The notes under the pieces are model-generated. The model was not told the origin of the DNA. It saw nothing but the letters and a program-made list of their open reading frames with translations, and searched no databases. Source: a virus. From it: a stretch of 29,005 nucleotides of DNA. Positions 9,786 to 23,905 of the stretch are shown piece by piece. Within the stretch, counting starts at the first letter, position 1, and each line of letters starts with the position of its first letter. The stretch is taken from the IMG/VR virus record IMGVR_UViG_3300042988_000011, positions 1 to 29,005 of that record; one strand, given 5' to 3'. The position numbers and the translations under genes were made by a program.

Positions 9786-10172
9786 ATGTCTGAAATGTCA
9801 AACTACTTGGAAAACGCATTGGTTAATGCAGTTCTCCGCAACACAAGCTACACAAGCCCTGCCACAGTCTATTTGGCGCTCTACACAAGCGACCCAACTG
9901 ACGCAGACGCAGGTACAGAGGTGTCTGGCACTTCTTACGCTCGTCAATCAATCACTTTTGGTTCGCCTTCTAATGGTGTGACTACAAACAGCGCAGCAAT
10001 TGAGTTTCCTCAAGCTGGTGGCTCATGGGGAACGATTACACATGTTGGTATCCGTGATGCTGAGACAACTGGAAACTTGTTGTTTCACACCGCTTTGGAT
10101 GCTTCTAAGACGATCTCCACAGGTGACGTTTTCCGCATCGCATCAGGTTCATTGAGCGTGACATTGGCGTGA
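9786..10172 (+). CDS. Gp80-like tail fibre/tail protein, 128 aa
   Basis: Contains MSNYLENALVNAVLRNT, then VYLALYTSDPT, SGTSYARQSITF and a final FRIASGSLSVTLA. I recognise this as the small beta-rich family often labelled tail fibre protein Gp80-like, found near adaptor genes in many phages. Its precise structural role is not established by sequence. It is separated from the adaptor gene by 2 nt. Confidence 0.75.
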   Translation: MSEMSNYLENALVNAVLRNTSYTSPATVYLALYTSDPTDADAGTEVSGTSYARQSITFGSPSNGVTTNSAAIEFPQAGGSWGTITHVGIRDAETTGNLLFHTALDASKTISTGDVFRIASGSLSVTLA

Positions 10173-10173
10173 T

Positions 10174-11001
10174 ATGGCTGACTTGCTCCCGCCGTGGACA
10201 ATTGACAGCCTAGATAACCTCAAGGCTAGTCTTGATGACTTAACGCTGTCTCTTGACAGTGAGTTATACGAAACTTCTGTCACTCTGTGGGATGCTTACG
10301 GTTCTATATCGACAAGCGCATCAGTTTCAGCACTTGCTGGAATTGCCGCAAATGCTTCTGCATCAGTTTCATGCGCAGCATCAGTTTCATGTGATTCTCA
10401 GGTCGTTATCTATGCAAGCGCATCAATAACAAGCTCTGCAAGCGCATCTTGTGATGCTGTAAGGGTTGCTATTGGCAACGCATCAATAACTGCTTCTGCA
10501 TCTGTTTCTGCTGCTGCTAAACGCATTGCTATTGCATCCGCTGAAATTTCTTGTCAGGCGACTGTTTCAGCTTTTGGCGGAATACTGTTTGATGCTAGTG
10601 CTGATATTGATTCAAGCGCATCTGTTTCTGCTGACGCAATAAGAGTTTGCATTGCTGACGCTTCAATTGACGCATCTGCAACTGTCACAGCATTGGGCGG
10701 TATTACGGCTGATGGCATTGCATCTGTAACCTGTGACGCTACATTTGGAGCAAATGCTTATGCGGTACTCGACTTTATTGGGTCTGTGGACTGCAACAGC
10801 ATTGTTGTTTGCAATGGGGTGCGTGTGGGTGATAATTGGTCTAACGTGCCAGTTAGCACAGATGCTTGGGCTGATGTGTCGCAAAATGGCAACACTTGGT
10901 CGGAAATGAGTGAAAGCTCAAATTCTTGGTCAGATGTTGCGAGTAATTCAAACACTTGGGCGCAGACTGCCTCAAGTTCAAACACTTGGCTGAGACAATG
11001 A
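10174..11001 (+). CDS. Repeat-rich structural protein, 275 aa
   Basis: Three parts are visible. Residues 1-40 hold acidic Leu/Ser/Asp heptad-like text (SLDNLKASLDDLTLSLDS). Residues about 45-210 carry roughly eight degenerate 20-residue units rich in Ala/Ser/Val, of the form ASIxxSASVSAxxxxIxIA, suggestive of a beta-solenoid. Residues 220-272 hold an exact 10-residue Trp repeat with Trp at 222, 232, 242, 252, 262 and 272. No homologous function is known to me. The location between fibre-like and gp10-like genes indicates a virion component, possibly a tail spike shaft or an adhesive appendage. The stop overlaps the next start. Confidence 0.75.
   Translation: MADLLPPWTIDSLDNLKASLDDLTLSLDSELYETSVTLWDAYGSISTSASVSALAGIAANASASVSCAASVSCDSQVVIYASASITSSASASCDAVRVAIGNASITASASVSAAAKRIAIASAEISCQATVSAFGGILFDASADIDSSASVSADAIRVCIADASIDASATVTALGGITADGIASVTCDATFGANAYAVLDFIGSVDCNSIVVCNGVRVGDNWSNVPVSTDAWADVSQNGNTWSEMSESSNSWSDVASNSNTWAQTASSSNTWLRQ
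10291..10790 (+). repeat. About 20-residue Ser/Ala/Val protein repeats
   Basis: The encoded units alternate hydrophobic and small polar residues, for example ASASITSSASASCDAVRVAI, NASITASASVSAAAKRIAIA and DASIDASATVTALGGITADG. At DNA level they are diverged but share recurrent gcatcagtttc and gcatctgtttc blocks, pointing to past tandem duplication. Confidence 0.7.
10831..10989 (+). repeat. 30-bp (10-residue) Trp repeat, about 5 units
   Basis: The C-terminal units end in W every 10 residues: SNVPVSTDAW, ADVSQNGNTW, SEMSESSNSW, SDVASNSNTW, AQTASSSNTW. The period is exact and without gaps, and the nucleotide text tcaaacacttgg recurs. Confidence 0.85.
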
Positions 11002-12650
11002 CAATACAACGAGTTCCATTAGGTGAGTGGTTACCAGATCAGCCAGGTCTGATTGGTGCTATTACCAAAGCCCAAAACTGCTACCCAACACAGACAGGCT
11101 ATGCGCCTTTCCCGTCTGAGGCTGACTTGTCTGCTGCGGCTGACGAGAATCTGATGACATTGGCCTACTCAAAAGACCAATCAGGCACGATCAAGCTGTT
11201 TGCGGCAGGTCAAGACAAGATTTACACCGTTGACTCTGTTGGCGCTTTGACACCTGTTTGGTACACGGCAGGCACATACGATCAGGCTGGTTCTACCACT
11301 TTGACCGTTACTGCTACTGCTCACGGCTGGAAGACAGGTGACTCTGTTTATCTGAACTTCACAAGCGGAACAGCGGTAGATGGTGATTTTACAATTACCA
11401 AGATTGACGCAAACAGCTTTAGCGTTACAACAACATCGGCGACAACAAGCGGAAACGTAAGAATCTCGTCAACATCTTCAGGGCTTAACACTCCTGCTGG
11501 TCAACGCATCAGATTCACTCGATTCGGAAATCGCACAATTGCTGCTAACTTTGGTGATCGACTTCAGTCGTTTGTGGCTGATGACAGCACATCTTTCCGT
11601 AATCTTGCTGACAATGCGCCAATTGCTAAGTTTGTTACTGTGGTTCGTGACTTTGTGGTTGCGGCAAACACTACTGACAACTCAGGCGACTACCCTTATC
11701 GCGTTCAATGGTCTGGGATTAACGATGAAACAACGTGGACTACTAGTCAGATCACTCAAGCTGATTATCAAGACATTCCTGATGGTGGTCATATTACTGG
11801 CATACGCGGTGGCGAGTTTGGTCTTATCCTGATGGAAAAGGCAATCCACCGTATGAGCTACGTTGGTACGCCTTTCGTGTTCCAGTTTGACAACATCAGC
11901 CGTGAAAAGGGTTGCATTGCATCTGGCTCTGTTGGTCAATATCAAGGCTTGACGTTCTTCTTGTCTGATGATGGTTTTTATCTGTGTGACGGTCAACAAG
12001 TCGTGCCAATCGGTGCTGAAAAGATTGATCGTTTTTTCTTTAGTGATGCTGACCCTGACTTTTCAACAATGTCATGCGCTGTTGACCCATTCCGTAAGCT
12101 AGTCTTGTGGAACTACAAAAACAGATTTGCAGAGCGCAGGTTATTGGCTTACAGCTTCACAACAAAAAAGTGGTCTTCAATGATTACAACTGCTGACTAC
12201 ATTTCTGACGCTACAACAGCATCGGTAACGCTTGAGGAATTGGACAGCATCAGCGCATCAATTGATGCTTTGGAAGTTTCTTTGGACTCAAACCAATACG
12301 CTGGTGGCAAATACTTCTTGGGGGGCACTACTGGAACGAAAGTCATTACTTTCAACGGAGCTAACAAAACAGCGACCATTGAAACAGGAGACATTTCTAC
12401 TGGTGGCAGATCATTGGTTAACTTGGCTCGACCACAGATTGATGGCGGCTCTGCATCAGTTGCTTTGGCTTCTCGTACATTGCTTGGTGATGCTGTGACA
12501 TTTGGCACAAGCACACATGCTGACTCTGATAACAGGGTTTCCCTACGAGGTTCAGGAAACTATCATCGAATCCAAGTTACACCAACTGGTGACAACTGGA
12601 AAATGGCTGTGGCTGTTGATATTGACGTTATTCCACAAGGGGCGCGTTAA
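10998..12650 (+). CDS. P22 gp10-like tail/nozzle protein (putative)
   Basis: 550 aa from the ATG at 10998, which overlaps the previous stop (ATGA); an upstream in-frame start at 10956 would only translate the repeat region out of frame. The N-terminus VPLGEWLPDQPGLIGAITKA, the TQTGYAPFP segment and repeated beta-rich motifs such as MEKAIHRMSYVGTPFVFQF and LSDDGFYLCDGQQVVPIG resemble the beta-propeller tail hub/DNA-stabilisation proteins of short-tailed phages. Residues about 93-158 (TLTVTATAHGWKTGDSVYLN) look like an inserted beta-sandwich domain common in phage virion proteins. It likely closes the portal channel. Confidence 0.75.
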   Translation: MTIQRVPLGEWLPDQPGLIGAITKAQNCYPTQTGYAPFPSEADLSAAADENLMTLAYSKDQSGTIKLFAAGQDKIYTVDSVGALTPVWYTAGTYDQAGSTTLTVTATAHGWKTGDSVYLNFTSGTAVDGDFTITKIDANSFSVTTTSATTSGNVRISSTSSGLNTPAGQRIRFTRFGNRTIAANFGDRLQSFVADDSTSFRNLADNAPIAKFVTVVRDFVVAANTTDNSGDYPYRVQWSGINDETTWTTSQITQADYQDIPDGGHITGIRGGEFGLILMEKAIHRMSYVGTPFVFQFDNISREKGCIASGSVGQYQGLTFFLSDDGFYLCDGQQVVPIGAEKIDRFFFSDADPDFSTMSCAVDPFRKLVLWNYKNRFAERRLLAYSFTTKKWSSMITTADYISDATTASVTLEELDSISASIDALEVSLDSNQYAGGKYFLGGTTGTKVITFNGANKTATIETGDISTGGRSLVNLARPQIDGGSASVALASRTLLGDAVTFGTSTHADSDNRVSLRGSGNYHRIQVTPTGDNWKMAVAVDIDVIPQGAR

Positions 12651-13444
12651 TGTTTCGCACACTACCCGTATTTGGTGGAGATCAAAGGGCTGTTGCGGAA
12701 ATAGTCAATGGCATTATGAATGGCAAGACAAACAATCACGGTACTGTGACTCTTGCCACTGGTAATGCCACATCTACAACGATCTATGACGAGCGAATTA
12801 GTCCTGACAGCAAAATAGTTGTCATCCCTTTTTCTGCTGCTGCTTTTACTGACTCAACGCCTTATGGCGCGTTCCAAGATTCAACAGACCAAACTGCGGC
12901 ATCTACGACTACGGCATACGCTGTGACGTACAACACAACAGATTTTTCTAATGGGATTTCTGTTGTAAGCAACTCAAGAATTACTGCAAAAAGTTACGGA
13001 ATTTATAACTTTCAATTTAGTTTTCAGTTTGTTAATACTGACACGCAGATTCAAGACGTAGATGTTTGGTTTGCAAAGAACGGAACAAACATTGCAAACT
13101 CAAATAGTCGGTTTTCTATTCCAAACTCGCATGGTGGCGTAGATGGGCATTTGATTGCAGCAATGAATTTTTGGGTTGAAATGCAAGCTAATGATTACGT
13201 TGAGATCATGTGGCGCACAACTAGCACAGCAGTATCAATTCAGCAGATTCCATCTCAGACAAGCCCAACACGACCTGCAACGCCTTCAGCCATTGTGACA
13301 GTCAACTTTGCCTCGTCAAATGGAACAAACGCTGCTGGCGATTATGGTGTTTACGCTAGTTCGCAGACAAAGGGTGAGGCTGTGTTGACTCATTTTGCAA
13401 ACTCCACATCAAACAAAACTTACGCTTACATAATCGTAGGGTAG
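12650..13444 (+). CDS. C1q/TNF-like virion protein, 264 aa
   Basis: Starts with a TAATG overlap on the gp10-like gene. The N-terminal part (GDQRAVAEIVNGIMNGKTNN, then GTVTLATGNATSTTIYDERI) is a conserved opening of phage structural proteins. The middle, SRITAKSYGIYNFQFSFQFV to AMNFWVEMQANDYVEIMWRT, resembles the jelly-roll of C1q/TNF-type beta-sandwich domains. The last part (GEAVLTHFANSTSNKTYAYI) is a short beta motif. Probably a trimeric tail or neck decoration; the exact role is not known. Confidence 0.7.
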   Translation: MFRTLPVFGGDQRAVAEIVNGIMNGKTNNHGTVTLATGNATSTTIYDERISPDSKIVVIPFSAAAFTDSTPYGAFQDSTDQTAASTTTAYAVTYNTTDFSNGISVVSNSRITAKSYGIYNFQFSFQFVNTDTQIQDVDVWFAKNGTNIANSNSRFSIPNSHGGVDGHLIAAMNFWVEMQANDYVEIMWRTTSTAVSIQQIPSQTSPTRPATPSAIVTVNFASSNGTNAAGDYGVYASSQTKGEAVLTHFANSTSNKTYAYIIVG

Positions 13445-13454
13445 TGTATATAAT
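13425..13454 (+). promoter_or_regulatory. Sigma70-like promoter for the ejection/fibre operon
   Basis: A perfect -10 TATAAT (13449-13454) lies 18 nt after CTTACA (13425-13430, 4 of 6 matches to TTGACA). It sits at the end of the previous gene and in the largest gap of the late block, so transcription would begin near 13461. Candidate by motif and position only. Confidence 0.55.
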
Positions 13455-13457
13455 GGC

Positions 13458-13497
13458 TCCGTGGATGACCCGCTACGGAGTCCTTTGAAAAGAAAGG
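13458..13497 (+). other. Structured leader of the ejection operon
   Basis: CTCCGT (13458-13463) pairs with ACGGAG (13475-13480). Next, CCTTT (13482-13486) pairs with AAAGG (13493-13497) around GAAAAG. The right arm of the second hairpin contains the likely Shine-Dalgarno AGAAAGG, 7 nt from the ATG at 13505, so folding could limit ribosome access. Confidence 0.45.
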
Positions 13498-13504
13498 TGC
13501 TTTT

Positions 13505-14437
13505 ATGGCAGTCGGAACCACAACATCCACACAAACAACGCAGATTGACCCAACAATCCAACCATATCTGAAGTATGGTCTGGAAGAAGCTCAACGCTTG
13601 TACCAAGCTGGTGGCCCAAAGTTCTTTACTGGTCAGGCTTATGTTGGCCCATCTCAAGCCACACAAACAGGCTTAGAGGCTTTGCAAGCTCGCGCTGGTG
13701 CTGGTAGTCCTTTGACTGGTGCTGCTCAGAATCAACTGTATGGCACTATCCAAGGCGATTACTTGGGTGGCAATCCATTCTTTCAAGGTGCTTTCCAACC
13801 TGCCGCACAAGCTGCAACTGATGCCTTTAACACGGCTATCGGTAACGTAACTTCTGCCGCATCAAAGGCGGGTCGTTATGGCTCTGGCGCTATGCAAAAC
13901 TTGCAAACTGCTGCCGCTGGTCAACTTGCACAGAAACTCACAGGTACGGCTGGACAGTTGGCCTATGAGAACTACGCAAATGAACGCGCTCGTCAACAAC
14001 AGGCAACATTTGGTGCGCCATCGTTGGCTGAGGCTGATTACGCTGACATTAACAAGATGCTTGCTGCTGGTCAGTTGGGTGAAGGCTACCAACAAAAGGC
14101 GTTGGATGCTGCGATGCAAAAGTATGCTTACGAGCAAAACTTGCCACAACAGCAATTGACGAACTATCTGAACCAAACCTACGGTTTCCCTGCTGGCAAG
14201 ACTTCAACAACACAACAGCCTTACTTTACTAACCCAACTGCTACTGCTTTGGGTACTGGTTTGCTTGGCGTTCAGTTGTTGAGTGGCGTTGATAAATTGG
14301 GCGGTGGTGACACTCTGAACAAAGGCTGGAACTGGCTTTCAAGCGGTTGGGGTGGAAGCGCAGGCGGTGGAGTAGGTGGCTCTGGATATGACTGGAGTGG
14401 TTTAGGTTCAGTCGATACATCTGCATGGATGGGCTAA
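13505..14437 (+). CDS. Probable internal virion/ejection protein 1, 310 aa
   Basis: The N-terminus has QIDPTIQPYLKYGLEEAQRL, then a long Ala/Gln-rich helical region with SAASKAGRYGSGAMQNLQTA and NYANERARQQQATFGAPSLA. A predicted hydrophobic stretch (TALGTGLLGVQLLSGV) precedes a Gly/Trp-rich tail. This composition and the position before two other Ala-rich proteins match the ejection-protein clusters of podoviruses (counterparts of P22 gp7/gp20/gp16), which cross the envelope ahead of the DNA. The assignment is by style and position, not by a defined domain. Confidence 0.75.
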   Translation: MAVGTTTSTQTTQIDPTIQPYLKYGLEEAQRLYQAGGPKFFTGQAYVGPSQATQTGLEALQARAGAGSPLTGAAQNQLYGTIQGDYLGGNPFFQGAFQPAAQAATDAFNTAIGNVTSAASKAGRYGSGAMQNLQTAAAGQLAQKLTGTAGQLAYENYANERARQQQATFGAPSLAEADYADINKMLAAGQLGEGYQQKALDAAMQKYAYEQNLPQQQLTNYLNQTYGFPAGKTSTTQQPYFTNPTATALGTGLLGVQLLSGVDKLGGGDTLNKGWNWLSSGWGGSAGGGVGGSGYDWSGLGSVDTSAWMG

Positions 14438-14441
14438 AAAC

Positions 14442-15704
14442 ATGGCACTCTTAGATTCTTTTTATGGCGAAACGCCCTCATATCTTGGTGGCTTGCTTGG
14501 AGCTGATGAACTTGCTCGATTGAAAGAACAAGCTCAAAGCCAATCCAATTTGGGTATGGCTGCTGCTTTGCTTCAAGCTGGCGCTCCAAGCCGTACACCT
14601 ACTGGTGGCGCTTTGGCTATTGCTCAAGGTCTGCAACAAGGTCAACAACTCTACAAACAGGCTTTGAACCAAGGGCTGCAAGAGAAGATGGCTGGTATGC
14701 AAGTGCAAGAGTTGATGCGCAAACAACAAGAAGCTGAGGCTATGCGTCAGTTCTTGCCTAAACTTATTCAGCCTGGCGCTGTTGAACAAAACTGGTCTGG
14801 CGCTCCTGAGCAAATTGGTCAGTATTTCAAAACTGGTCAAGTTCCAACAACTCAAGCTCCTAGCACGATCAACCGTGAGGCTTTACAGCGTTTGGCTTTG
14901 GTTTCTCCTGAGACTTATGCTAAATATAAACCTGAATACAAAGAAGTAAATGGTCAATTGGTTGAGATTTCTCCATTAGGCGGAATTACAACTGTTGCAG
15001 GTCAAGCAAAAGAGGATTTGGCTGGCCCTGTAAAGCAGGCAATGCAAGTGCTTGGAATTAACAAACCATTTGCTGAAGTAACTCCACAAGAGCGTTCAAT
15101 GATTGGAAACTACATTGACCGTCAAGAATCTTTGAAAGCTCCAAAGGTTGCTGTTGACTTGAAAGACCCGACAGCAGTTGCAAAAGCTCAGGCTGATTTG
15201 CTTAAAGATTGGCGTGGTGTTGTGAAAGACAGCGGCGCAACTGAAATTGCAAACCGCTTTGTTTCTCTTGGCGCTGCCATGAATGAGGCAAACAAAGGCA
15301 ATAAAGCTGCTGACGGTGCAATCATTTACAACATCGGCAAGATTTATGACCCATCTGGCGCTGTGCAAGAAGGTGATAAAAACACAATTCTTGGCAATCG
15401 CTCAATTCCTAATGAGGTTAAGGCATACGCTCAGAAAGTGTTTGAAGGCGGTTCGTTGTTGCCTGAAGAACGCCAAGGTCTATATGCTGTTGCTGGCTCT
15501 ATGGTCAAGCAACGTCAGAAACAATTGCAAGCAGACCAAGCAAACTACAAGTCATTGGCTACACAATTGGGTGGAACAGGCGATTACATCAAAGACCCAT
15601 TTGCAGATGTTTTTAGTCCAAAAGTTGAGCAGAATCCTGTTTTTGACTTGGGTTCTGCCAAAGCTCAAGCCGCTGAAATTCTCAAGAAACGCAGAGGTCT
15701 TTAA
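14442..15704 (+). CDS. Probable internal virion/ejection protein 2, 420 aa
   Basis: 420 aa, starting 4 nt after the previous gene. The opening MALLDSFYGETPSYLGGLLG is followed by Ala/Gln-rich helices (SNLGMAAALLQAGAPSRTP, GGALAIAQGLQQGQQLYKQA) and a coiled coil with KMAGMQVQELMRKQQEAEAM. The C-terminal half is helical and polar. There are no transmembrane segments and no catalytic motif. Same family style as its neighbours, so a member of the ejected set is the most likely role. It ends with an ATG overlap on the next gene. Confidence 0.75.
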   Translation: MALLDSFYGETPSYLGGLLGADELARLKEQAQSQSNLGMAAALLQAGAPSRTPTGGALAIAQGLQQGQQLYKQALNQGLQEKMAGMQVQELMRKQQEAEAMRQFLPKLIQPGAVEQNWSGAPEQIGQYFKTGQVPTTQAPSTINREALQRLALVSPETYAKYKPEYKEVNGQLVEISPLGGITTVAGQAKEDLAGPVKQAMQVLGINKPFAEVTPQERSMIGNYIDRQESLKAPKVAVDLKDPTAVAKAQADLLKDWRGVVKDSGATEIANRFVSLGAAMNEANKGNKAADGAIIYNIGKIYDPSGAVQEGDKNTILGNRSIPNEVKAYAQKVFEGGSLLPEERQGLYAVAGSMVKQRQKQLQADQANYKSLATQLGGTGDYIKDPFADVFSPKVEQNPVFDLGSAKAQAAEILKKRRGL

Positions 15705-17614
15705 TGAATCCTGATCTCACATTGCTATCTGATAAAGACTTAGAGGCTCTTTCTTCAGGAAAGATTGAGCTAATGTCTGATGCTGGATTGGCAATTCTTG
15801 CTGGTGAACAGCCAAAGGTTGCTCCTAAGAAAATGACAGCGAAAGAGGAATTGCAGTCTGCTTTTGGTTTTGATAAGCCAAAGCCTCAAACTCAATCTGC
15901 TGGTGATCTTCTGCGTAACCTTGGTTTAACTGCTCGCGGCGCTTTAACTGGTGCTGCATCGTTGCCAGCCATGATTGCTGACGTTCCTGCAAGCCTTGTA
16001 AACCTTGCTGCTGGTCGTCAAATCTACAAGCCACAAGCAGAGGCTTTTGGTGATTTGCTATCTGCCCTAGGCGCTCCAAAAGCTGAAACTCCAGCAGAAC
16101 GCCTGATGACCGAATCCGCTGCTGCTATTGGTGGTGTTGCTGCTCCTGCTGGATTGGCAAATCGAGTGAGTCAGGCTGTTGCTCCACAATTGGCAACTCG
16201 CACACAAGAATTGGCAAGATTCTTTGGTGAAAATGTACCTGCTCAAGTTGCTGCTGCTACTGGTGGTGCATTGGCTGGTGGCGCTGCGCGTGAAAGCGAT
16301 GCAAGCCCATTGATGCAATTGATTGCTAGTATTGGTGGAGCTGCAACTCCAGCAGGTGCAATGGCTCTTGGCCCTGCTGTTGGTCGTGCGGCAAAAGAAG
16401 TTGTGCGCCCAGGTACTCAGGCTGGTCGTGAAGCTATTGCAGGTGGTGTGTTGCGTCAATTGTCTCGTGAGCCTGAGGCTGCAATTAAAGCAATGGAAGG
16501 CTATCAAGCACCTGTTTCTGGTTACACACCAACAGCAGCGCAAGCAAGCCGTGACGTTGGTTTGATTGCAGCAGAAACTCCAATCAGAGCATTTGACGTA
16601 ACTGGTAAGTTTGGCGCTCAAGCAAGCCAAGCAAATCAAGCTCGTATGGCTATCCTTGATAGATTGGCTAAAGACAAGGCTGCTGTTGAATCTGCTGTTA
16701 CAAAACGTGATGAAGTAACTTCTCCATTGCGTGAAGAAGCATTTGCAAAATCAACAGTAAGCCCTGAGACTTTCCAATCTGCTGTTGCGTTGAACGTAAA
16801 CAAGACGATTGATGACATTCTTACCTCAAATGCTGGCGCTCGTGGAACAGTCAAAAAGACTATGACATGGGCTAAAGAGCAATTGGCTGAAGGTACTACT
16901 CCAGAGCGTCTTTATGAAGTCCGTAAAGACTTGCGTAGTGCTGCACAAGGACTTTTGGATAAAGAAGGTTCTCAGTACAGCTTGGCAAAAGGACAGCTTG
17001 AGCAAGTTATCAAGGCTGTTGACGATACGATTGAAGCTGCTGCGCCTGGCTACCAAGCATATTTGAAGAAATACGCTCAATCTAGCAAAGGTATTGAAAA
17101 GTTAGAAGCTGCTCAAGAGTTCCGTGGCAAAGTACTATCAACCACACCAGACCCATCTGGCGTGTCTGATTACATGATTTCACAGCCTTCGTTTACACGC
17201 GCAATTCGCAATGCTGAGAAAGAGACTAATCTTTCAAACACCCAATTGGCTGTTTTGAAGAAAGTTGCTCAAGACTTAGATTCTGGTGTGTTGAATCGTG
17301 CGGTTAAGACACCTGGCTCTGATACATTCAAGAATCTAAGCACAGCAAATATCATTGGCGCTTTCATTGGCAAACAAATGTTTGGTGAAGTTCCAGCAGC
17401 AGTAAACAAAGTTGCTGCGCCTTTGAATTGGCTCTATAACGGCACAGACGATCAGATTCGTGAGTTGCTGGTAGATGCCATGCTTGACCCAAAACTTGCG
17501 TCTAAACTGATGACTAAGGCATCTGTCGTAAGTGTTGAGCCACTTAGCAAAGAACTTCAACGCAAAGCCATTGCCGCTGGTTATGGCGCTTCATTTGGAT
17601 TAACGGAGAGATAA
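15704..17614 (+). CDS. Probable internal virion/ejection protein 3, 636 aa
   Basis: 636 aa. After an acidic N-terminus (LLSDKDLEALSSGKIELMSD) comes a long Ala/Gly-rich region with possible membrane-active helices (residues about 75-230, such as GAASLPAMIADVPASLVNLA and AAIGGVAAPAGLANRVSQAV), then a Lys/Glu-rich helical half. The length and amphipathic content resemble the largest ejection protein of P22-type phages, thought to form part of the envelope-spanning conduit. No lytic transglycosylase motif is visible. Overlaps the previous gene by 1 nt. Confidence 0.75.
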   Translation: MNPDLTLLSDKDLEALSSGKIELMSDAGLAILAGEQPKVAPKKMTAKEELQSAFGFDKPKPQTQSAGDLLRNLGLTARGALTGAASLPAMIADVPASLVNLAAGRQIYKPQAEAFGDLLSALGAPKAETPAERLMTESAAAIGGVAAPAGLANRVSQAVAPQLATRTQELARFFGENVPAQVAAATGGALAGGAARESDASPLMQLIASIGGAATPAGAMALGPAVGRAAKEVVRPGTQAGREAIAGGVLRQLSREPEAAIKAMEGYQAPVSGYTPTAAQASRDVGLIAAETPIRAFDVTGKFGAQASQANQARMAILDRLAKDKAAVESAVTKRDEVTSPLREEAFAKSTVSPETFQSAVALNVNKTIDDILTSNAGARGTVKKTMTWAKEQLAEGTTPERLYEVRKDLRSAAQGLLDKEGSQYSLAKGQLEQVIKAVDDTIEAAAPGYQAYLKKYAQSSKGIEKLEAAQEFRGKVLSTTPDPSGVSDYMISQPSFTRAIRNAEKETNLSNTQLAVLKKVAQDLDSGVLNRAVKTPGSDTFKNLSTANIIGAFIGKQMFGEVPAAVNKVAAPLNWLYNGTDDQIRELLVDAMLDPKLASKLMTKASVVSVEPLSKELQRKAIAAGYGASFGLTER

Positions 17615-17616
17615 GA

Positions 17617-19056
17617 ATGTCAAAAGACAAAATCAGCGATTACAGCGCAACGGCAAACTCAAACACCGACATTGCTGGCATCAACATTGACGAGGGCTGT
17701 GCTCCAAGTGGCATTAACAATGCCATTCGCACATTGATGAAGCAAATCAAAGACCTATATGCTGGCACAAGTGGTGATAAATGGCCTGTTACTGCTGGCG
17801 GTACTGGTGGAACAACTGCATCTGAAGCTCGTACAAACCTTGGTTTGGCTATCGGTACAGACGTTCAAGCATACGATGCACAGTTGACAGACATTGCTGG
17901 ATTGACACCAACTGATAACGGTGTTGTGATTGGCAATGGAACTAACTTTGTTGTTGAGTCTGGCGCAACATTAAAGACTTCTCTAGGTCTGACAATCGGA
18001 ACAGATGTTCAGGCTTATGACGCTGATCTTACATCCATTGCAAACTCAGGCAAGGGAGATCAGATTGCTTCGTATGGTACTTATGGAGTAGGCTTCAAGA
18101 ACCGCATCATCAATGGTGCGATGATGATTGACCAGCGTAATGCGGGGGCTAGTGTTACAGTCAACTCGACAACAGGTTACGTCTTAGACCGCTGGACTAC
18201 AGGCATAACTCAAAATGGAAAGCTTACGTCACAGCAAAATGCTGGCGCAGTAACTCCGCCTGTTGGATTTAAAAACTACCTCGGGTTTACTTCAACTTCT
18301 GCTTATTCAGTTTTATCTACGGATATTTTTGCTGCATTTCAAAAAATTGAAGGATTTAACACTGCTGATTTAGCTTGGGGAACAGCAAATGCTGCAACCG
18401 TAACCATTTCGTTTTGGGTTCGCAGCTCTTTGACTGGTACGTTTGGTGGCGCATTAAACAATGCTTTAGGTAACCGTTCATACCTATTTACTTACACAAT
18501 CTCCGCTGCAAATACTTGGGAACAAAAAACCATTACTGTTGCTGGAGATACATCAGGAACATGGGCTACCGACAATAGTTGTGGTATTCAACTCAACTTT
18601 GGTTTGGGAGGTGGATCAACTTATTCTGCATCAGCGGGCTCTTGGCAGGCTGGCGCATATTACACAGCAACAGGCGCAACCAGCGTTGTCGGTACATCTG
18701 GAGCCACCTTCTACATCACAGGCGTTCAACTAGAAAAAGGCAGCACAGCCACATCGTTTGACTACCGCCCGTATGGTACTGAGTTGGCTTTGTGTCAGCG
18801 GTATTATCAAGTCGTTCGCGCCACTTGGAGTGGTAACACAACAAACGCTGAAAATTACAGTGCAACAGTTGCCTTTCAAGCAGCTATGCGTTCATCCCCA
18901 ACAGGCACATCCACCGATGTGACTACTCTAGGGTTTAATGCAGGTGGCTCGTTTACAGATTTAGCTGCATCTGGCGCAAGATTTGTAGGTACTGCAAATA
19001 CAACCAATACGGGGAGAATTATGGTTCGTGATTGTTTACTTTCTGCGGAGTTATAA
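17617..19056 (+). CDS. Tail fibre / receptor-binding protein
   Basis: 479 aa. The N-terminus with DYSATANSNTDIAGINIDEG and GCAPSGINNAIRTLMKQIKD is a common virion-anchoring domain of tail fibres, followed by the Gly/Thr hinge VTAGGTGGTTASEARTNLGL. A 20-residue unit LGLxIGTDVQAYDAxLTxIA occurs twice (residues 75-94 and 123-142). The C-terminal part, from FKNRIINGAMMIDQRNAGAS to ITGVQLEKGSTATSFDYRPY, resembles carbohydrate-binding beta-sandwich domains of fibre tips. It should recognise the host surface. Separated by 2 nt from the ejection genes. Confidence 0.85.
   Translation: MSKDKISDYSATANSNTDIAGINIDEGCAPSGINNAIRTLMKQIKDLYAGTSGDKWPVTAGGTGGTTASEARTNLGLAIGTDVQAYDAQLTDIAGLTPTDNGVVIGNGTNFVVESGATLKTSLGLTIGTDVQAYDADLTSIANSGKGDQIASYGTYGVGFKNRIINGAMMIDQRNAGASVTVNSTTGYVLDRWTTGITQNGKLTSQQNAGAVTPPVGFKNYLGFTSTSAYSVLSTDIFAAFQKIEGFNTADLAWGTANAATVTISFWVRSSLTGTFGGALNNALGNRSYLFTYTISAANTWEQKTITVAGDTSGTWATDNSCGIQLNFGLGGGSTYSASAGSWQAGAYYTATGATSVVGTSGATFYITGVQLEKGSTATSFDYRPYGTELALCQRYYQVVRATWSGNTTNAENYSATVAFQAAMRSSPTGTSTDVTTLGFNAGGSFTDLAASGARFVGTANTTNTGRIMVRDCLLSAEL
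17839..18043 (+). repeat. Duplicated 20-residue fibre module
   Basis: The fibre residues 75-94 and 123-142 are nearly identical (16 to 17 of 20), offset by 48 residues. The nucleotide copies have diverged at third positions, so the duplication is not recent. Such units often form repeated trimeric shaft segments. Confidence 0.6.
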
Positions 19057-19221
19057 ATGTACAAACTTCTTCCAAAAACAGAACTTGGCGATGAGAAATG
19101 TCTAGTCCGTCTATCAGATAATGCCTTTATCCCGTTCGATTCTGCCAACACAGACTACCAAGCCTATTTGAAATGGCTGGAAGAAGGCAACACGCCTTTA
19201 CCTGCTGACGAGGCTCAGTAA
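19057..19221 (+). CDS. Small fibre-associated protein, 54 aa
   Basis: The ATG immediately follows the fibre stop, and the TAA shares its last base with the next ATG. The product begins MYKLLPKTELGDEKCLVRLS, continues DNAFIPFDSANTDYQAYLKW and ends LEEGNTPLPADEAQ. The segment YQAYLKWLEEGNTPLPAD is typical of short proteins or domains encoded just behind tail fibre genes, some of which act as fibre assembly factors. Exact function unknown. Confidence 0.75.
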   Translation: MYKLLPKTELGDEKCLVRLSDNAFIPFDSANTDYQAYLKWLEEGNTPLPADEAQ

Positions 19222-19424
19222 TGGCAACAATTGACGAAACTGAAGCTCGTCTAAACAGCCATGAAGCTGTTTGTGCAATGCGTTATGAGCGCATTAACGA
19301 ACAGTTTGAAAGCGGTAAGAAACGCATGGACAAGATGGAATATCTAATCTATGCGGTTCTTGCTTCTGTGCTGTTTGGCCCTGGCGTAGCTGCTGAGTTC
19401 TTTAAACGCTTAATCGGCTTGTGA
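19221..19424 (+). CDS. XhlA-like small membrane protein, 67 aa
   Basis: A charged amphipathic N-terminal helix (DETEARLNSHEAVCAMRYER) is followed by one hydrophobic segment (MEYLIYAVLASVLFGPGVAA) and a short C-terminus. This is the layout of XhlA/haemolysin-like lysis accessory proteins in phages. It opens the lysis cassette and overlaps the previous gene by 1 nt. A holin or membrane-associated lysis role is inferred. Confidence 0.7.
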   Translation: MATIDETEARLNSHEAVCAMRYERINEQFESGKKRMDKMEYLIYAVLASVLFGPGVAAEFFKRLIGL

Positions 19425-19431
19425 GGTTGCT

Positions 19432-20190
19432 ATTGACCCAATTTCCCTTCTCATGGCAGCACAGGCAGCAGTTGCGGCAGTCCGCAAAGGCTGTGAGATG
19501 CTGTCTGAAGGGAAGGCTGAGATTAGCAAGCTCAAGTCAACCGTAGAGAAGGGTATTGGGGATGCCAAAGCAATCTACAAAGAGGTCACGGGTTTATGGT
19601 CGTGGATTCTTGGTTTATTTGGCAAGCAAGAAAAGAAGTCAGTTGCTATTGCTGAACCCGTTAAGACTGAAGCGATTGTCCAAGCGCCAAAGCGTTTGCC
19701 CAAGCCTAATCGAGAGCTTAGTTATGAGGAATACCAGACACAAGCCATTCATCAGGTTTGTGAGCAACTGAAAACATTTTTTGAGATTCGCAGGAATCTA
19801 AAAGCACACTGTCTTGAGCTGGAAGAAATCTCAAAGACGACAACGACAATTGAAGACAGTGCGATTGACAGGGTGGAAATCGAGCTTCAGCTTGAAAACA
19901 TGACTGTTCAAATCAGGGAAGCGATGGTTTATGCGCCGAAAGAACTTCGTGCCATATACAGCAGATTCCTTGAGATGTACGACCTAATCTTGGAAGAACA
20001 AGAGTTTGCAAGGCAACTCAAACGGAAGAACGAAAGAGATGCTAAATGGCAACGCGAACTCCTACGCAATCACAGGGTAGATCGGGCGGTGGTATCGGCT
20101 CTAGTCTTTCTTCTAGTTCTGTGGATGTGGGGGTTCATGCTGTCGCTAGGATGGCTCGTGAAGACACACGGTGGTTCGTCGTCGGTGTAG
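19432..20190 (+). CDS. Coiled-coil membrane protein of the lysis region (possible ATT start)
   Basis: The safest ATG is at 19453 (245 aa), but it has no Shine-Dalgarno. In the same frame, ATT at 19432 lies 5 nt after GAGG (19423-19426) and would give (M)DPISLLMAAQAAVAAVRKG, which resembles how I remember related phage proteins beginning. The product has an Ala-rich N-terminal helix, an amphipathic Trp-containing segment (GLWSWILGLFGK), a long helical middle and a C-terminal membrane segment (ALVFLLVLWMWGFMLSLGWL). Similar proteins sit in lysis regions of podovirus-like phages, but no function is known to me. Its end overlaps the next gene by 145 nt. Confidence 0.7.
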   Translation: MDPISLLMAAQAAVAAVRKGCEMLSEGKAEISKLKSTVEKGIGDAKAIYKEVTGLWSWILGLFGKQEKKSVAIAEPVKTEAIVQAPKRLPKPNRELSYEEYQTQAIHQVCEQLKTFFEIRRNLKAHCLELEEISKTTTTIEDSAIDRVEIELQLENMTVQIREAMVYAPKELRAIYSRFLEMYDLILEEQEFARQLKRKNERDAKWQRELLRNHRVDRAVVSALVFLLVLWMWGFMLSLGWLVKTHGGSSSV

Positions 20191-20372
20191 TCACGCTATC
20201 CATTGTGTTGTTTTTGGCGTTGCCCGTGTCTATGTTGGTCGTGGTTGACTACATGAAACTTAGAGCTGAGATGCAGCATGAAATAAGGCAGATTCGGAAA
20301 CTTAAACAAGAGCTGAAAGGAAAGAATGAAAAAGCTGTTGCTGATAAGCCTGTTGCTGGTAGCGGGGTGTGA
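20046..20372 (+). CDS. Membrane protein with coiled coil (i-spanin-like), 108 aa
   Basis: Lies in another frame over the last 145 nt of the preceding gene and reaches into the following lipoprotein gene. One transmembrane segment (about residues 43-65, FVVGVVTLSIVLFLALPVSM) is followed by a charged helix (KLRAEMQHEIRQIRKLKQEL). The start at 20046 has AAAGAG upstream; an internal ATG at 20151, giving MAREDTRWF, is an alternative with no long overlap. Membrane helix plus coiled coil, overlapped in the +1 frame by a lipoprotein, is the layout of i-spanins. The many basic residues after the helix make topology uncertain. Confidence 0.65.
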   Translation: MATRTPTQSQGRSGGGIGSSLSSSSVDVGVHAVARMAREDTRWFVVGVVTLSIVLFLALPVSMLVVVDYMKLRAEMQHEIRQIRKLKQELKGKNEKAVADKPVAGSGV

Positions 20373-20535
20373 AGACCGTTGGAGATATTTTTGTCAAGAC
20401 CCAAAGAATTTTCAACAAAAAAGATGCCAACGCCCAGACTGTCTATTCACACAAGACTGCCCTGATTACCTTGTTGCTCCTGTCTTGGAAAAGCAAGCAC
20501 AACAACCTCAATCTACATCTTCGGAGACTAAATGA
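20326..20535 (+). CDS. Small Cys-rich lipoprotein (o-spanin-like), 69 aa
   Basis: Signal peptide MKKLLLISLLLVAGC with a lipobox VAGC, so the mature protein would begin at Cys15 and be anchored to a membrane. The mature part contains four more cysteines (23, 34, 39, 45) within EDRWRYFCQDPKNFQQKRC and PDCLFTQDCPDY, suggesting disulfides in the periplasm, then a Gln/Ser-rich tail. It starts 47 nt inside the preceding membrane-protein gene in the +1 frame. SD GAAAGGAAAG precedes the ATG. I recall similar EDRWRY lipoproteins in phage lysis regions, without a proven function. Confidence 0.8.
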   Translation: MKKLLLISLLLVAGCEDRWRYFCQDPKNFQQKRCQRPDCLFTQDCPDYLVAPVLEKQAQQPQSTSSETK

Positions 20536-21044
20536 AATCTTTTGAAATTCAATCCGTTGAAGAACTAGTAAAACTTATCCAAGTTATTGTTTGGGGCATT
20601 GTTGTCTTTGTCCTAATGATGGTTCTTGGCGGCATTGTTGCCACCATGTTGTACTCAGTCACATTTGTGCAACAGCCTTTAAAGGCAATGGCTCCTATTG
20701 ACATGGCATATACCAAGATGCTTAACGACATTGTTTTGATCTTGGCTAGTAGCGTAACAACCATTGTCAGTATGTTTGCTGTCAATAAAGGTATTCAATC
20801 TGCTGCTGAAAAAATTGCTCCTACTCTTGGAAATCCACCCCCACAGCCACAAGCCGTAGCACCTAGCACTGCCCCAGTGACTACGGCAAGCGGGGCAATG
20901 CCTGATTTCAACTGGATGGGTACATCTCAGGTGCAGTTTGATGAGGAGTGGAGAGCGCCACCACCGCCAACAACTCCACCAAATCACCTTGAGCCAGAGC
21001 ATGAGCGTGAGGAATTGGCACTAGCAAGGGCAGGTGAGCGATGA
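20532..21044 (+). CDS. Two-TM membrane protein, candidate holin, 170 aa
   Basis: ATGA overlap on the lipoprotein. There are two hydrophobic segments, about residues 15-45 (VIVWGIVVFVLMMVLGGIVA) and 65-87 (NDIVLILASSVTTIVSMFAV), then a Pro-rich linker and an acidic C-terminal tail (EEWRAPPPPTTPPNHLEPEH). Two membrane segments and its place right before Rz/Rz1 and endolysin make it the best holin candidate. The long soluble tail is unusual for holins, so another lysis-membrane role is possible. Confidence 0.65.
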   Translation: MKSFEIQSVEELVKLIQVIVWGIVVFVLMMVLGGIVATMLYSVTFVQQPLKAMAPIDMAYTKMLNDIVLILASSVTTIVSMFAVNKGIQSAAEKIAPTLGNPPPQPQAVAPSTAPVTTASGAMPDFNWMGTSQVQFDEEWRAPPPPTTPPNHLEPEHEREELALARAGER

Positions 21045-21505
21045 TGCCTAATCCTTGGCTAATCATTGGAGCCATTGCGTTTGTGATGGCTTCTTACTTC
21101 TATGGACACCATGCAGGCTTTGTTGATCGTGACAACGAGATGCAAGCTGAAATCGCTAGGCTAAATGCTGAGGCGCGTGAAAAAGAGCAACAACTTGCTC
21201 AAGACTTGAACAACACATCTTCACAATTGAAAGAGGCAAACGATGCTGTCACTAAAAAACAGTCTGATCTTGACCGCCTTATTAACTCTGGCAGGGTGCG
21301 GCTCAACGCCACAGGTTGCCCACAAGGGAGTGCAAATTCCACCACTACCAGTGGAAATAACGAGGCAGGAACCGAATCTGAGCGAGAGACTTTACGACTT
21401 ATTGCTGAAATCGCAGCAGAAGGCGACAGAGCCATCAACAAGCTCAACGCCTGCATCACAGCCTATGAACAAGTCAGGAGCCAAGTAAATGACAGTAACC
21501 GCTGA
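21041..21505 (+). CDS. i-spanin (Rz)
   Basis: 154 aa, overlapping the previous gene by 4 nt. One N-terminal transmembrane anchor (PWLIIGAIAFVMASYFYGHH), then a periplasmic coiled coil with NEMQAEIARLNAEAREKEQQ and LKEANDAVTKKQSDLDRLIN, and a C-terminal helical part with two cysteines. This is the classical Rz inner-membrane spanin, which fuses inner and outer membranes with its lipoprotein partner at the end of lysis. The partner gene lies wholly inside it. The 3' end overlaps the endolysin start by 17 nt. A second ATG at 21044 is equally usable. Confidence 0.9.
   Translation: MMPNPWLIIGAIAFVMASYFYGHHAGFVDRDNEMQAEIARLNAEAREKEQQLAQDLNNTSSQLKEANDAVTKKQSDLDRLINSGRVRLNATGCPQGSANSTTTSGNNEAGTESERETLRLIAEIAAEGDRAINKLNACITAYEQVRSQVNDSNR
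21243..21488 (+). CDS. o-spanin (Rz1), embedded in Rz
   Basis: 81-aa lipoprotein encoded in the +1 frame entirely inside Rz. Signal peptide MLSLKNSLILTALLTLAGC with lipobox LAGC (Cys19), then a Pro-containing mature chain (GVQIPPLPVEITRQ) and a Ser/Thr-rich end. Complete nesting of Rz1 in Rz is known from lambda-type phages. SD GAGGCAAACG lies upstream. The TAA is followed directly by the endolysin ATG at 21489. Confidence 0.9.
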   Translation: MLSLKNSLILTALLTLAGCGSTPQVAHKGVQIPPLPVEITRQEPNLSERLYDLLLKSQQKATEPSTSSTPASQPMNKSGAK

Positions 21506-22091
21506 ACAACTAGCAAAACTGCATATTGGCGCTCAATGGGTTGATGCGCTTAATGAGACTTTTGAGCGTTTTGGTATTGCGTCTAAGAATCAACAAGCTG
21601 CGTTCATTGGACAGTGTGGGCATGAGTGCGGAAACTTCAAAATCCTTGAGGAGAATTTGAACTACCGCGCTGCCACTTTAATGAAGCTGTGGCCTAAACG
21701 CTTTCCTACACAAGAAGTTGCAAATGCTTACGAGAAGAACCCTAAGAAGATCGCCAACATGGTTTACGCCTCACGCATGGGCAACCGAGATGAAGCGTCT
21801 GGCGATGGTTATCGTTTTAGGGGTCGTGGGTGCATCCAGCTTACTGGTCATGCTAACTATTTTCACGCTGGTAAGGCATTGGGCGTTGATTTTGTTATGC
21901 AGCCTGATCTTGTGGCAACTCCAAAGTATGCTGCTTTAACAGCTGGCTGGTTCTGGTCAACTCACGGCTGTAATGAGATTGCTGATCGTGGAGATTGGAC
22001 TCAGTTAACCAAGAAAATTAACGGTGGCACGATTGGTCTTGATGACCGTATCAAGCACACGAACGAGGCTTTAGCTGTCCTTCAATCTTGA
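21489..22091 (+). CDS. Endolysin, GH19 chitinase-like
   Basis: 200-aa peptidoglycan hydrolase. AAFIGQCGHECGNFK holds the proposed catalytic Glu46, corresponding to the GHE-S/G motif of GH19-type phage lysins. YRFRGRGCIQLTGHANYFHA is the hallmark substrate-cleft motif, and AGWFWSTHGCNEIADRGD and TKKINGGTIGLDDRIKH complete the fold. No signal peptide or binding domain, so release needs a holin. The start sits one codon after the Rz1 stop. The end overlaps a gene on the opposite strand by 10 nt. Confidence 0.93.
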   Translation: MTVTAEQLAKLHIGAQWVDALNETFERFGIASKNQQAAFIGQCGHECGNFKILEENLNYRAATLMKLWPKRFPTQEVANAYEKNPKKIANMVYASRMGNRDEASGDGYRFRGRGCIQLTGHANYFHAGKALGVDFVMQPDLVATPKYAALTAGWFWSTHGCNEIADRGDWTQLTKKINGGTIGLDDRIKHTNEALAVLQS

Positions 22092-22183
22092 ACAGCAAGC
22101 AAGGCGAACACTATTCCAAAAACAATCCCAAACGCAAGAACGCCAACGAATAGAAATCTGATGATTGCGATGATGTTATCCAT
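22082..22183 (-). CDS. 33-aa single-TM peptide
   Basis: ATG at 22183 (minus) with AAGGG 9 nt upstream encodes MDNIIAIIRFLFVGVLAFGI, then VFGIVFALLAVQD. It is almost entirely hydrophobic. It starts inside the stop region of the upstream zinc-finger-like gene, as expected for a coupled operon gene, and its last 10 nt overlap the endolysin end from the opposite side. Function unknown; small membrane peptides are common in phage early operons. Confidence 0.55.
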   Translation of the reverse strand: MDNIIAIIRFLFVGVLAFGIVFGIVFALLAVQD

Positions 22184-22376
22184 GCTTGTGTTCCCTTGCC
22201 TCACCTAGCGTTTGAAAATACTCATCACAGCGGTTGCAACGCCAGAGCCTTTGTTCTCTGACAGTTGCAAGTCGCTGTTCCCTATTTCTCCATCCCACGA
22301 TTACTCGTGAATCGCCCCGAAAACTTGTCACGGGTTCGATGTTGGCTGGCAGTTTTATAGTGGTTAGGTTCTTCAT
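22176..22376 (-). CDS. Small C2H2-like zinc-finger protein, 66 aa
   Basis: The C-terminal 20 or so residues read CNRCDEYFQTLGEAREHKHG, where two Cys and two His spaced C-x2-C and H-x-H could bind zinc. The N-terminal half (IKLPANIEPVTSFRGDSRVI, then VGWRNREQR) is basic. It probably binds nucleic acid or protein. The start lacks a clear Shine-Dalgarno, and the first 95 nt overlap another small open frame, so the exact start is open. Confidence 0.6.
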   Translation of the reverse strand: MKNLTTIKLPANIEPVTSFRGDSRVIVGWRNREQRLATVREQRLWRCNRCDEYFQTLGEAREHKHG

Positions 22377-22509
22377 TTTGCAAAAAGTAAGCTAGATCAT
22401 TTGCAGGTTTAGCTATTTTATTTGCTATCTTGGTTTTCTTGGGTTTCTCCACTGTCTCCCACTTGGGCCAAGGTGCGTTCGGTGCTAGAACTGTCTTGTA
22501 CTGGTTCAT
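22282..22509 (-). CDS. Possible overlapping small protein, 75 aa
   Basis: Lys/Pro/Asn-rich frame (NAPWPKWETVEKPKKTKIAN) starting inside the 59-aa gene and ending inside the zinc-finger-like gene. SD is weak (AGAAAG). The N-terminal text looks protein-like, but it overlaps on both sides, so it may be a shadow or the product of a local frameshift. No family recognised. Confidence 0.4.
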   Translation of the reverse strand: MNQYKTVLAPNAPWPKWETVEKPKKTKIANKIAKPANDLAYFLQNEEPNHYKTASQHRTRDKFSGRFTSNRGMEK

Positions 22510-22597
22510 TCTTTTTCTTTCTAAAGATCATGTCGTAGTTGTCAGAATACTTCTCGTAGTCTGGCATTGGTCTTGGTGCGCTGCCTTTGCCGCTCAT
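22418..22597 (-). CDS. Conserved small phage protein MSGKGSAPRP type, 59 aa
   Basis: ATG at 22597 (minus) has GAGG 6 nt upstream and overlaps the stop of the preceding gene (ATGA). The N-terminus MSGKGSAPRPMPDYEKYSDN followed by YDMIFRKKKN is a pattern I recognise from short, widespread phage early proteins of unknown function. The remaining 28 or so residues are Ser/Gln/Glu-rich and probably disordered. Confidence 0.75.
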   Translation of the reverse strand: MSGKGSAPRPMPDYEKYSDNYDMIFRKKKNEPVQDSSSTERTLAQVGDSGETQENQDSK

Positions 22598-22815
22598 TCT
22601 TGCCTCGCTTTCAGCATTGCGTCTGCTACTGCGTATGACAAATTTGCAACCAAATCAGAAGTTACATCGCCAACAGTTCCTGATGGAGTTCTTGGACTCG
22701 CAATCAATCCTTGCATTGCCTTGGCAGCAAAGTAATCGCGCAATGTCATGCCTTCTGAAGCATACATTCCATCACCATAATTGTGATTTGTTGTTGGAAA
22801 TGCTGGTTTGTTCAT
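22594..22815 (-). CDS. Conserved small phage protein, 73 aa
   Basis: Begins MNKPAFPTTNHNYGDGMYAS, then GMTLRDYFAAKAMQGLI and ends AYAVADAMLKA-like (YAVADAMLKARQE). The arrangement N-terminal KPAFP, central G-[ML]-T-x-R-[DE]-Y-F-A and C-terminal YAxADAML is a familiar small phage protein with unknown function. ATGA overlaps on both sides. SD AAGGGGG. Confidence 0.8.
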   Translation of the reverse strand: MNKPAFPTTNHNYGDGMYASEGMTLRDYFAAKAMQGLIASPRTPSGTVGDVTSDLVANLSYAVADAMLKARQE

Positions 22816-23063
22816 TTAACCCCCTTTGGCATCCCTGCCCGTGAATAAACAAGAAATTCAGTTGGCTTCAACGACACACGCGCCTTTGTCTTTGGAAACA
22901 CGCTAATAGTGTTCACAGTAACGCTTGCATTTTCTCGCACAGCCCTGCTTCTAGCGCCATATTTCTCGCCATTGAGCTTTGCAGTTGATTCTGCTCGCAA
23001 GTTGGAAAGAAACTCTGGCATATGTGTTTTCACATAGTCAGGATGGAAACAGTTAATAGTCAT
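22812..23063 (-). CDS. Hypothetical early protein, 83 aa
   Basis: From ATG 23063 (GGA 6 nt upstream): MTINCFHPDYVKTHMPEFLS with a basic central part (LNGEKYGARSRAVREN) and a strand-rich C-terminus. A TTG 27 nt earlier would add hydrophobic residues that belong rather to the overlapping micro-frame, so I prefer the ATG. No domain recognised. Confidence 0.65.
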   Translation of the reverse strand: MTINCFHPDYVKTHMPEFLSNLRAESTAKLNGEKYGARSRAVRENASVTVNTISVFPKTKARVSLKPTEFLVYSRAGMPKGVK

Positions 23064-23416: not shown

Positions 23417-23905
23417 CTATGCAAGTGAATCTGGATTGTGTGTGTGGTACTTGGCTGCTGCATTGCAATAAGCCTTATACGCATCTTCTTTGTTGTCGTA
23501 TCTGCCAAGTCCAATGGTCTTGTACTTGTGCTGAATACAAGAAAACCATTTTTTCCTTTGTGTATCCCAACTAACGCCTTTGTAGCCTGACTTATTGTTT
23601 GCTTGTTTTTCTCTGTTTTCTTGATTTTGTTTTTTGCTAACAGCCCTCAAGTTGCAAATCTTGTTGTCAGTTGGATTTCTGTTGATATGGTCAATGTACT
23701 CAGGAAGTTCACCATAAACATAAAGCCAAGCAAGCCTGTGAGCAAGATAGAGCTTATTGTTAATGTTGATTCTGAAGTATCCATCTTTGTTAAGGTATCC
23801 AGCTTGTGTGCCAGCATGATATCTACCACGCCTTACCTTATTGATGAAAATTCCTGTGTCTTTGTTGTAGTCAAACAACTCTTTTAAACGCTGCTGCGTA
23901 ATCAT
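23417..23905 (-). CDS. HNH homing endonuclease with AP2-like DNA-binding domain
   Basis: 162 aa. The HNH core is AHRLAWLYVYGELPEYIDHI through NRNPTDNKICNLR, with His56, Asp72-His73 and Asn81 as likely metal/catalytic residues. Residues about 107-153 (SGYKGVSWDTQRKKWFSCIQ, then YDNKEDAYKAYCNAAAKYH) match an AP2-type DNA-binding domain. This pairing is typical of free-standing phage homing endonucleases that cut intron- or insert-less alleles. It interrupts an early operon between the SSB-like and winged-helix genes; no intron is apparent. Confidence 0.92.
   Translation of the reverse strand: MITQQRLKELFDYNKDTGIFINKVRRGRYHAGTQAGYLNKDGYFRININNKLYLAHRLAWLYVYGELPEYIDHINRNPTDNKICNLRAVSKKQNQENREKQANNKSGYKGVSWDTQRKKWFSCIQHKYKTIGLGRYDNKEDAYKAYCNAAAKYHTHNPDSLA

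Follow-up and report, generated by a model that had tools for sequence, protein, structure and literature searches.

A conserved lipoprotein and two-TM protein module beside the Rz/Rz1 spanin genes in the lysis cassette of an environmental phage

Two genes for proteins with one transmembrane segment (TM) are each accompanied by a lipoprotein gene in the +1 frame within a single lysis cassette of the IMG/VR virus record IMGVR_UViG_3300042988_000011. This is the frame relation of Rz/Rz1 spanins, and the initial annotation accordingly described two consecutive spanin-like pairs, the first of which could be a second, divergent or repurposed complex with a Cys-rich outer-membrane partner. Does the cassette encode two spanins, and, if not, with which protein does the first lipoprotein belong and what might it do? 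The window considered here is the whole stretch of 29,005 nucleotides, positions 1 to 29,005 of the record.

Gene layout of the cassette and the Rz/Rz1 pair

The cassette contains the following genes.

19221–19424, + strand: 67 aa, with a single TM at the C terminus; heads the cassette, candidate holin-like gene
19453–20190, + strand: P245, 245 aa, helical, with a C-terminal TM
20046–20372, + strand: P108, 108 aa, one TM and a charged C-terminal helix
20326–20535, + strand: LP69, lipoprotein of 69 aa, MKKLLLISLLLVAGC; very likely the first gene of a module with a two-TM protein
20532–21044, + strand: P170, 170 aa, two TMs, phrog_25359-like
21041–21505, + strand: Rz i-spanin, 154 aa (phrog_1327, 6.4e-11)
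21243–21488, + strand: Rz1 o-spanin lipoprotein, 81 aa, LTLAGC (phrog_3198, 3.4e-5)
21489–22091, + strand: GH19 endolysin (PF00182, 2.7e-12; phrog_181, 2.2e-81)

The four ORFs of the two proposed pairs, their lipoboxes and their +1-frame overlaps were all borne out. The P108 product had also been described as a coiled coil; one TM and a helix are confirmed, and the stretch after the TM is merely ~40 aa long. From P245 to the endolysin gene, same-strand neighbours overlap or abut throughout. The successive overlaps are 145 nt (P245/P108), 47 nt (P108/LP69, with LP69 in the +1 frame), 4 nt (LP69/P170, an ATGA overlap) and 4 nt, the endolysin gene overlaps the Rz gene by 17 nt, and Rz1 lies wholly inside Rz. 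The true start of P108 could be the ATG at 20151. Two lipoprotein-like ORFs were observed on the + strand of positions 17001–23000, where 200 codon shuffles gave 0.02 on average, so neither is a product of chance, and all the noted cassette ORFs have homologues in many IMG/VR contigs. The 67-aa protein could not be assigned to a family with confidence, having solely weak, sub-threshold matches in Pfam, PHROG and NCBIfam (NF048001 of NCBIfam, E 0.0023). An ORF on the − strand (23417–23905), close to where the lysis region ends, is similar to HNH/AP2-type homing endonucleases.

The second of the proposed pairs is, with virtual certainty, an ordinary Rz/Rz1 spanin. In addition to phrog_1327, Rz matches another PHROG Rz-like spanin family, phrog_2466 (4e-9), and the family matched by Rz1 is likewise annotated as Rz-like spanin. 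The arrangement is conserved: all 150 loci with an LP69 homologue and both spanin genes have Rz1 in the +1 frame, and it is embedded in Rz in 146/150. The stretch after the TM of Rz has a median length of 131 aa (214 homologues). Frame relation, embedding and a TM followed by a periplasmic helix are the same as in the lambda-type embedded Rz/Rz1, and Rz1 is likewise a lipoprotein with a PPLP segment; there is no notable difference between the two.

Genes that accompany LP69 and P108

Homologues of LP69, collectively LP, are found in hundreds of IMG/VR contigs. Besides the lipidated C15, LP69 has four cysteines (C23, C34, C39 and C45), and this four-Cys ectodomain is highly conserved, with the pattern RYxCQ[DN]P...C...P.C...C. 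Across the aligned homologues the mature core is nearly invariant; the signal peptide and the tail are variable. Some family members, encoded by large phages, are lipoproteins with CGYDG lipoboxes. No lipobox was scored in 70 of 306 distinct LP loci, a count that includes a few lipoboxes, such as LYAC, missed by the pattern; most of these proteins represent a TM-anchored form. LP followed by a two-TM gene is also present in the predicted actinobacteriophage DSL-LC01, for which the actinobacterial host was assigned from iPHoP, hostG, TerL and WhiB genes (PMC10611076). LP69 has no credible match in PHROG, Pfam, PDB, PADLOC or NCBIfam. Its AlphaFold2 model (pLDDT 71, pTM 0.32) contains no usable fold and yielded no significant match in the viral Foldseek library. 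Similar motifs in cultured marine pelagiphages or cyanophages were not confirmed by tblastn.

The most constant neighbour of LP lies downstream. Using a profile built on the TM segments of P170, we found a two-TM homologue within −60 to +200 nt downstream of 279 of the 289 distinct LP cores; six more have it further downstream, and the four without it are on contigs that end 18–281 nt past the LP stop codon. Since P170 itself had served to fetch some of the loci behind the 289 cores, a reciprocal search was run with the two-TM family alone. LP was directly upstream in 78 of the 80 loci obtained, with one contig edge and one apparently frameshifted ORF that holds both domains making up the rest. 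An apparent LP–two-TM fusion (L443) looks frameshifted and was left out of the evidence. LP and the two-TM protein very likely constitute a functional module.

P170 is predicted to have an N-in/C-in topology, with two TMs and an extracytoplasmic loop. Its best profile match is phrog_25359, a PHROG family annotated as of unknown function, and no credible match was obtained to a known holin family of PHROG or to Pfam, PADLOC, NCBIfam or PDB sequences. The AlphaFold2 model (pLDDT 70, pTM 0.35) displays the expected helices, with no usable fold and no significant match in the viral Foldseek search. Among the two-TM proteins from LP loci, each of the 219 distinct and complete ones keeps a Gln-Pro pair in the loop, and in A6 residues Q48, P49 and D57 do not vary. 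A sister two-TM family, first met in P245 loci, has FEKQDxELAPID-type loops without Gln-Pro. LP is absent from all 76 sister-family loci with enough sequence, four further loci being contig edges, and P108 is present in 63 loci of this family. The correlation between Gln-Pro and LP may reflect a single evolutionary event and is therefore supportive of, rather than proof for, a contact between the two proteins. LP and two-TM distances are uncorrelated within the clade of the window (Spearman 0.08), so co-adaptation at the level of residues is not seen there.

P108 follows a different gene. A P108-like ORF is found in 68/68 P245 loci with sufficient downstream DNA (HMM detection, E up to 0.1, exact position left unchecked), with or without the block of LP, two-TM and Rz genes. 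LP and the two-TM gene occur in just 22 of these 68 loci; P108 is present without LP in 46, and 39 are devoid of LP, two-TM and Rz alike. Thus, P108 belongs with P245, and the two genes, with their out-of-frame overlap of 145 nt, look like an obligate pair. Neither protein gave anything credible in Pfam, PHROG, PADLOC and NCBIfam searches. The stretch preceding the spanin genes of the window is made of two independent modules that merely abut, P245+P108 (19453–20372) and LP69+P170 (20326–21044), and the partner of LP69, to judge from the sequences, is P170 downstream and not P108 upstream. A 56.9-kb contig, IMGVR_UViG_3300049844_000006 (L488, L489), carries two different P245 loci (10072–16770 and 44358–51092), one with and one without the LP/two-TM/Rz block; the contig possibly combines two phages. 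In certain LP-less loci (L002, L489-type, L536), a phrog_1544-type membrane protein is encoded between P108 and the endolysin, apparently substituting for the LP/two-TM/Rz/Rz1 block.

P108 and LP69 compared with spanins

The layout of P108 and LP69 is that of the overlapped two-component spanins (class of SpaninDataBase, Kongari 2018), namely, a one-TM gene overlapped by a +1-frame lipoprotein gene inside a lysis cassette. A P108-like gene precedes LP in 100 of the 150 loci with LP, Rz and Rz1, and a Cys-rich o-spanin would have precedent, since known o-spanins contain up to four Cys and spanin genes can be embedded, overlapped or separated (PMC6139136). Nevertheless, Rz and Rz1 are already present in all 150 loci, and the pairing of P108 with LP is loose. 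Elsewhere LP is preceded by another protein, sometimes a soluble one. Clustering of the genes upstream of LP yielded P108-like one-TM proteins, 57-aa soluble proteins and amphipathic 61-aa proteins, along with HNH-like, thermonuclease-like, holin-like two-TM and other clusters, the HNH-like and thermonuclease-like labels coming from reading of the sequences by eye. In four loci (L108, L119, L128, L050), an HNH-type-endonuclease-like ORF lies between P108 and LP and has an ATGA overlap with LP. Unlike in overlapped spanins, the overlap itself is not conserved: it amounts to at least 20 nt in 47 of the 100 loci with a P108-like gene, 1–14 nt in 50 and none in three.

The proteins differ from spanins as well. 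The tail of P108-like proteins after the TM is 23–64 aa long (median 34; 113 homologues) and contains no Cys, versus 131 aa for Rz; judged by length, this tail and the LP ectodomain (~55 aa) would be too short to bridge the periplasm. The distance correlation between P108 and the LP core is 0.14, compared with 0.71 for Rz and Rz1, the latter figure being inflated because these two genes share nucleotides. In a positive-inside check, the K+R charge was greater on the C-side in 92 of the 113 P108 homologues, but Rz has the same flank bias, so these counts do not decide the topology. Furthermore, the LP domain is encoded by a predicted actinobacteriophage and is TM-anchored in some phages, which speaks against an o-spanin for the family, and its steady partner is downstream. 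The two genes are separable in both directions, with P108 found without LP and, in many loci, the homologous lipoprotein without a P108-type membrane gene, an occurrence that the initial annotation itself had named as speaking against its proposal. The first pair is very probably not a spanin, and the divergent, Cys-rich second spanin has very little probability left; conservation, tail length, cysteines and partner data are all against it, and we rejected it. A TM gene overlapped by a lipoprotein gene is insufficient for a spanin call.

Possible roles of LP69 and P170

The holin-like genes and endolysins next to LP69 and P170 make a role in lysis the most likely one for the pair. A GH19-type endolysin starts at most 1.2 kb away in 188 of 249 LP/two-TM loci with enough DNA, and the endolysins adjoining the module belong to at least five families, GH19, CHAP, VanY, GH25 and Transglycosylas of Pfam; these loci are mutually related and the counts do not represent independent events. 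One group of loci has a phrog_443 holin-family gene (1.5e-7) before LP. Two-TM relatives without LP likewise adjoin endolysins. By contrast with these cassettes, the module is not always beside lysis genes: a non-lysis gene is directly downstream of it in 44 loci of another group, and in DSL-LC01 a ribonucleotide reductase gene is located upstream.

In the explanation that we prefer, LP69 would expose a small domain of the disulfide type at the outer surface of a membrane, where a lipid holds it in most phages and a TM in some. The domain would most likely sit over the extracytoplasmic loop of P170, which retains Gln-Pro solely in the company of LP. P170 would be a holin-like membrane protein and LP69 its membrane-anchored extracytoplasmic regulator, acting in the manner of the T4 antiholin RI on holin T. 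The sequences show co-occurrence of the two genes, their membership of the module, its anchors and neighbourhood and its separability from P108; physical contact between LP69 and P170, their topology and any holin or antiholin activity are inferred. P170 has the general features of holin genes, being small, with two TMs (holins have 1–3), and located beside an endolysin in most, although not all, loci; where a separate holin-like gene is present, it need not be the holin. A regulator of a holin-like protein fits better than a spanin with a tethered, exported Cys domain consistently beside a two-TM protein whose loop is conserved, and also with the occurrence of the module mostly in lysis cassettes and in phages both of hosts that have an outer membrane and of hosts that lack one. 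We give a probability of roughly 0.4 to the explanation as a whole, that is, one spanin pair, P245/P108, and LP69/P170 as an antiholin-like regulator and holin-like module. The regulation of lysis as such, drawn by analogy, is a tentative proposal. More speculatively, LP69 and P170 might represent a new and widespread class of lysis control, in which a lipid- or TM-anchored disulfide domain outside the inner membrane gates a two-TM holin-like protein via its Gln-Pro loop in environmental phages of diderm and actinobacterial hosts.

RI is a periplasmic antiholin that is functional when membrane-anchored and binds holin T (PMC11413866). LP69 is, by working analogy, also a small Cys-containing extracytoplasmic protein that can be membrane-anchored. 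The two systems are otherwise different: LP69 has no match to RI by sequence or fold, LP is a lipoprotein or TM-anchored, and P170 has two TMs, whereas holin T combines a single TM with a periplasmic domain. Another comparison is provided by LysF1a and LysF1b of the F1 cluster of mycobacteriophages, two small membrane proteins that jointly time lysis, LysF1a having two TMs and an N-in/C-in topology (PMC13056207). The likeness, a lysis cassette with a pair of small membrane proteins that differ from each other, is by description, and no lipoprotein has been reported for that pair.

The upstream module bears on the same question, since P245+P108 might supply the holin function of the cassette, leaving LP69+P170 with an accessory and unrelated role. 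The constancy of P108-like ORFs in P245 loci regardless of LP, two-TM and Rz genes, mostly with a GH19 endolysin near, is in line with this reading. It is nonetheless quite unlikely, as neither protein matches a family and both are missing from other groups of phages in which LP and the two-TM gene lie beside endolysins. It is still more doubtful that LP69+P170 has the envelope itself as its target during lysis, as a pore or membrane-disrupting complex for monoderm and diderm hosts, instead of regulating holin timing. The same cassette position in Gram-negative-type phages with Rz/Rz1 and in actinophage-type phages, and the separate holin-family gene upstream in one group, would agree with such an action. 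However, it would be redundant with Rz/Rz1 in the clade of the window, and the LP-less two-TM relatives hold the same place in the cassette, suggesting that the two-TM protein can work alone. To our knowledge, a lipoprotein/two-TM complex that attacks the envelope directly has no precedent.

T5 Llp and phi80 Cor are phage lipoproteins of superinfection exclusion, and LP69 is likewise a small phage-encoded lipoprotein. We know of no exclusion lipoprotein of the Ltp, Llp or Cor type that is paired with a two-TM gene. LP69 matched the Cor family phrog_1119 at just E=0.14, over the signal peptide alone, and Ltp, Llp and Cor differ from it in not being embedded in a lysis cassette. The chief rival to a lysis regulator is nevertheless a superinfection-exclusion or envelope-immunity module that keeps the DNA of a second phage out of the cell, in the way of Ltp, the lipoprotein of Streptococcus thermophilus phages such as TP-J34 (PMC3952083). 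The presence of a phage-specific small lipoprotein in phages of unrelated hosts and the loci that are not beside lysis genes are compatible with exclusion. This role is unlikely, given that in the window the two genes share a run of closely overlapping genes on one strand with those for tail and lysis proteins, which points to late expression, and that the module is often linked to endolysins of five families. In addition, PADLOC gave no match, and the LP ectodomain is more conserved than expected for an arms-race protein.

IMG/VR contains at least ~600 matches to the module in each of three scans, whereas among 50,697 deposited phage records no more than 4 have it, all from uncultured phages. 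A scan of an 84,980-genome collection with LP patterns, confirmed by tblastn, returned three MAG contigs only, showing that LP is a phage gene. No description of the module was found under its motif or PHROG name in the literature searched. The claimed double spanin is thus replaced by a testable module, abundant in environmental phages and rare among deposited records. If the role in lysis is true, environmental phages of unrelated hosts share an extracytoplasmic control of lysis that was missed by isolate-based work. Many contigs of ~14–15 kb (loci L405–L484) have a holin-like gene, LP, the two-TM gene and a gp49-like gene in common and may be near-complete small phages.
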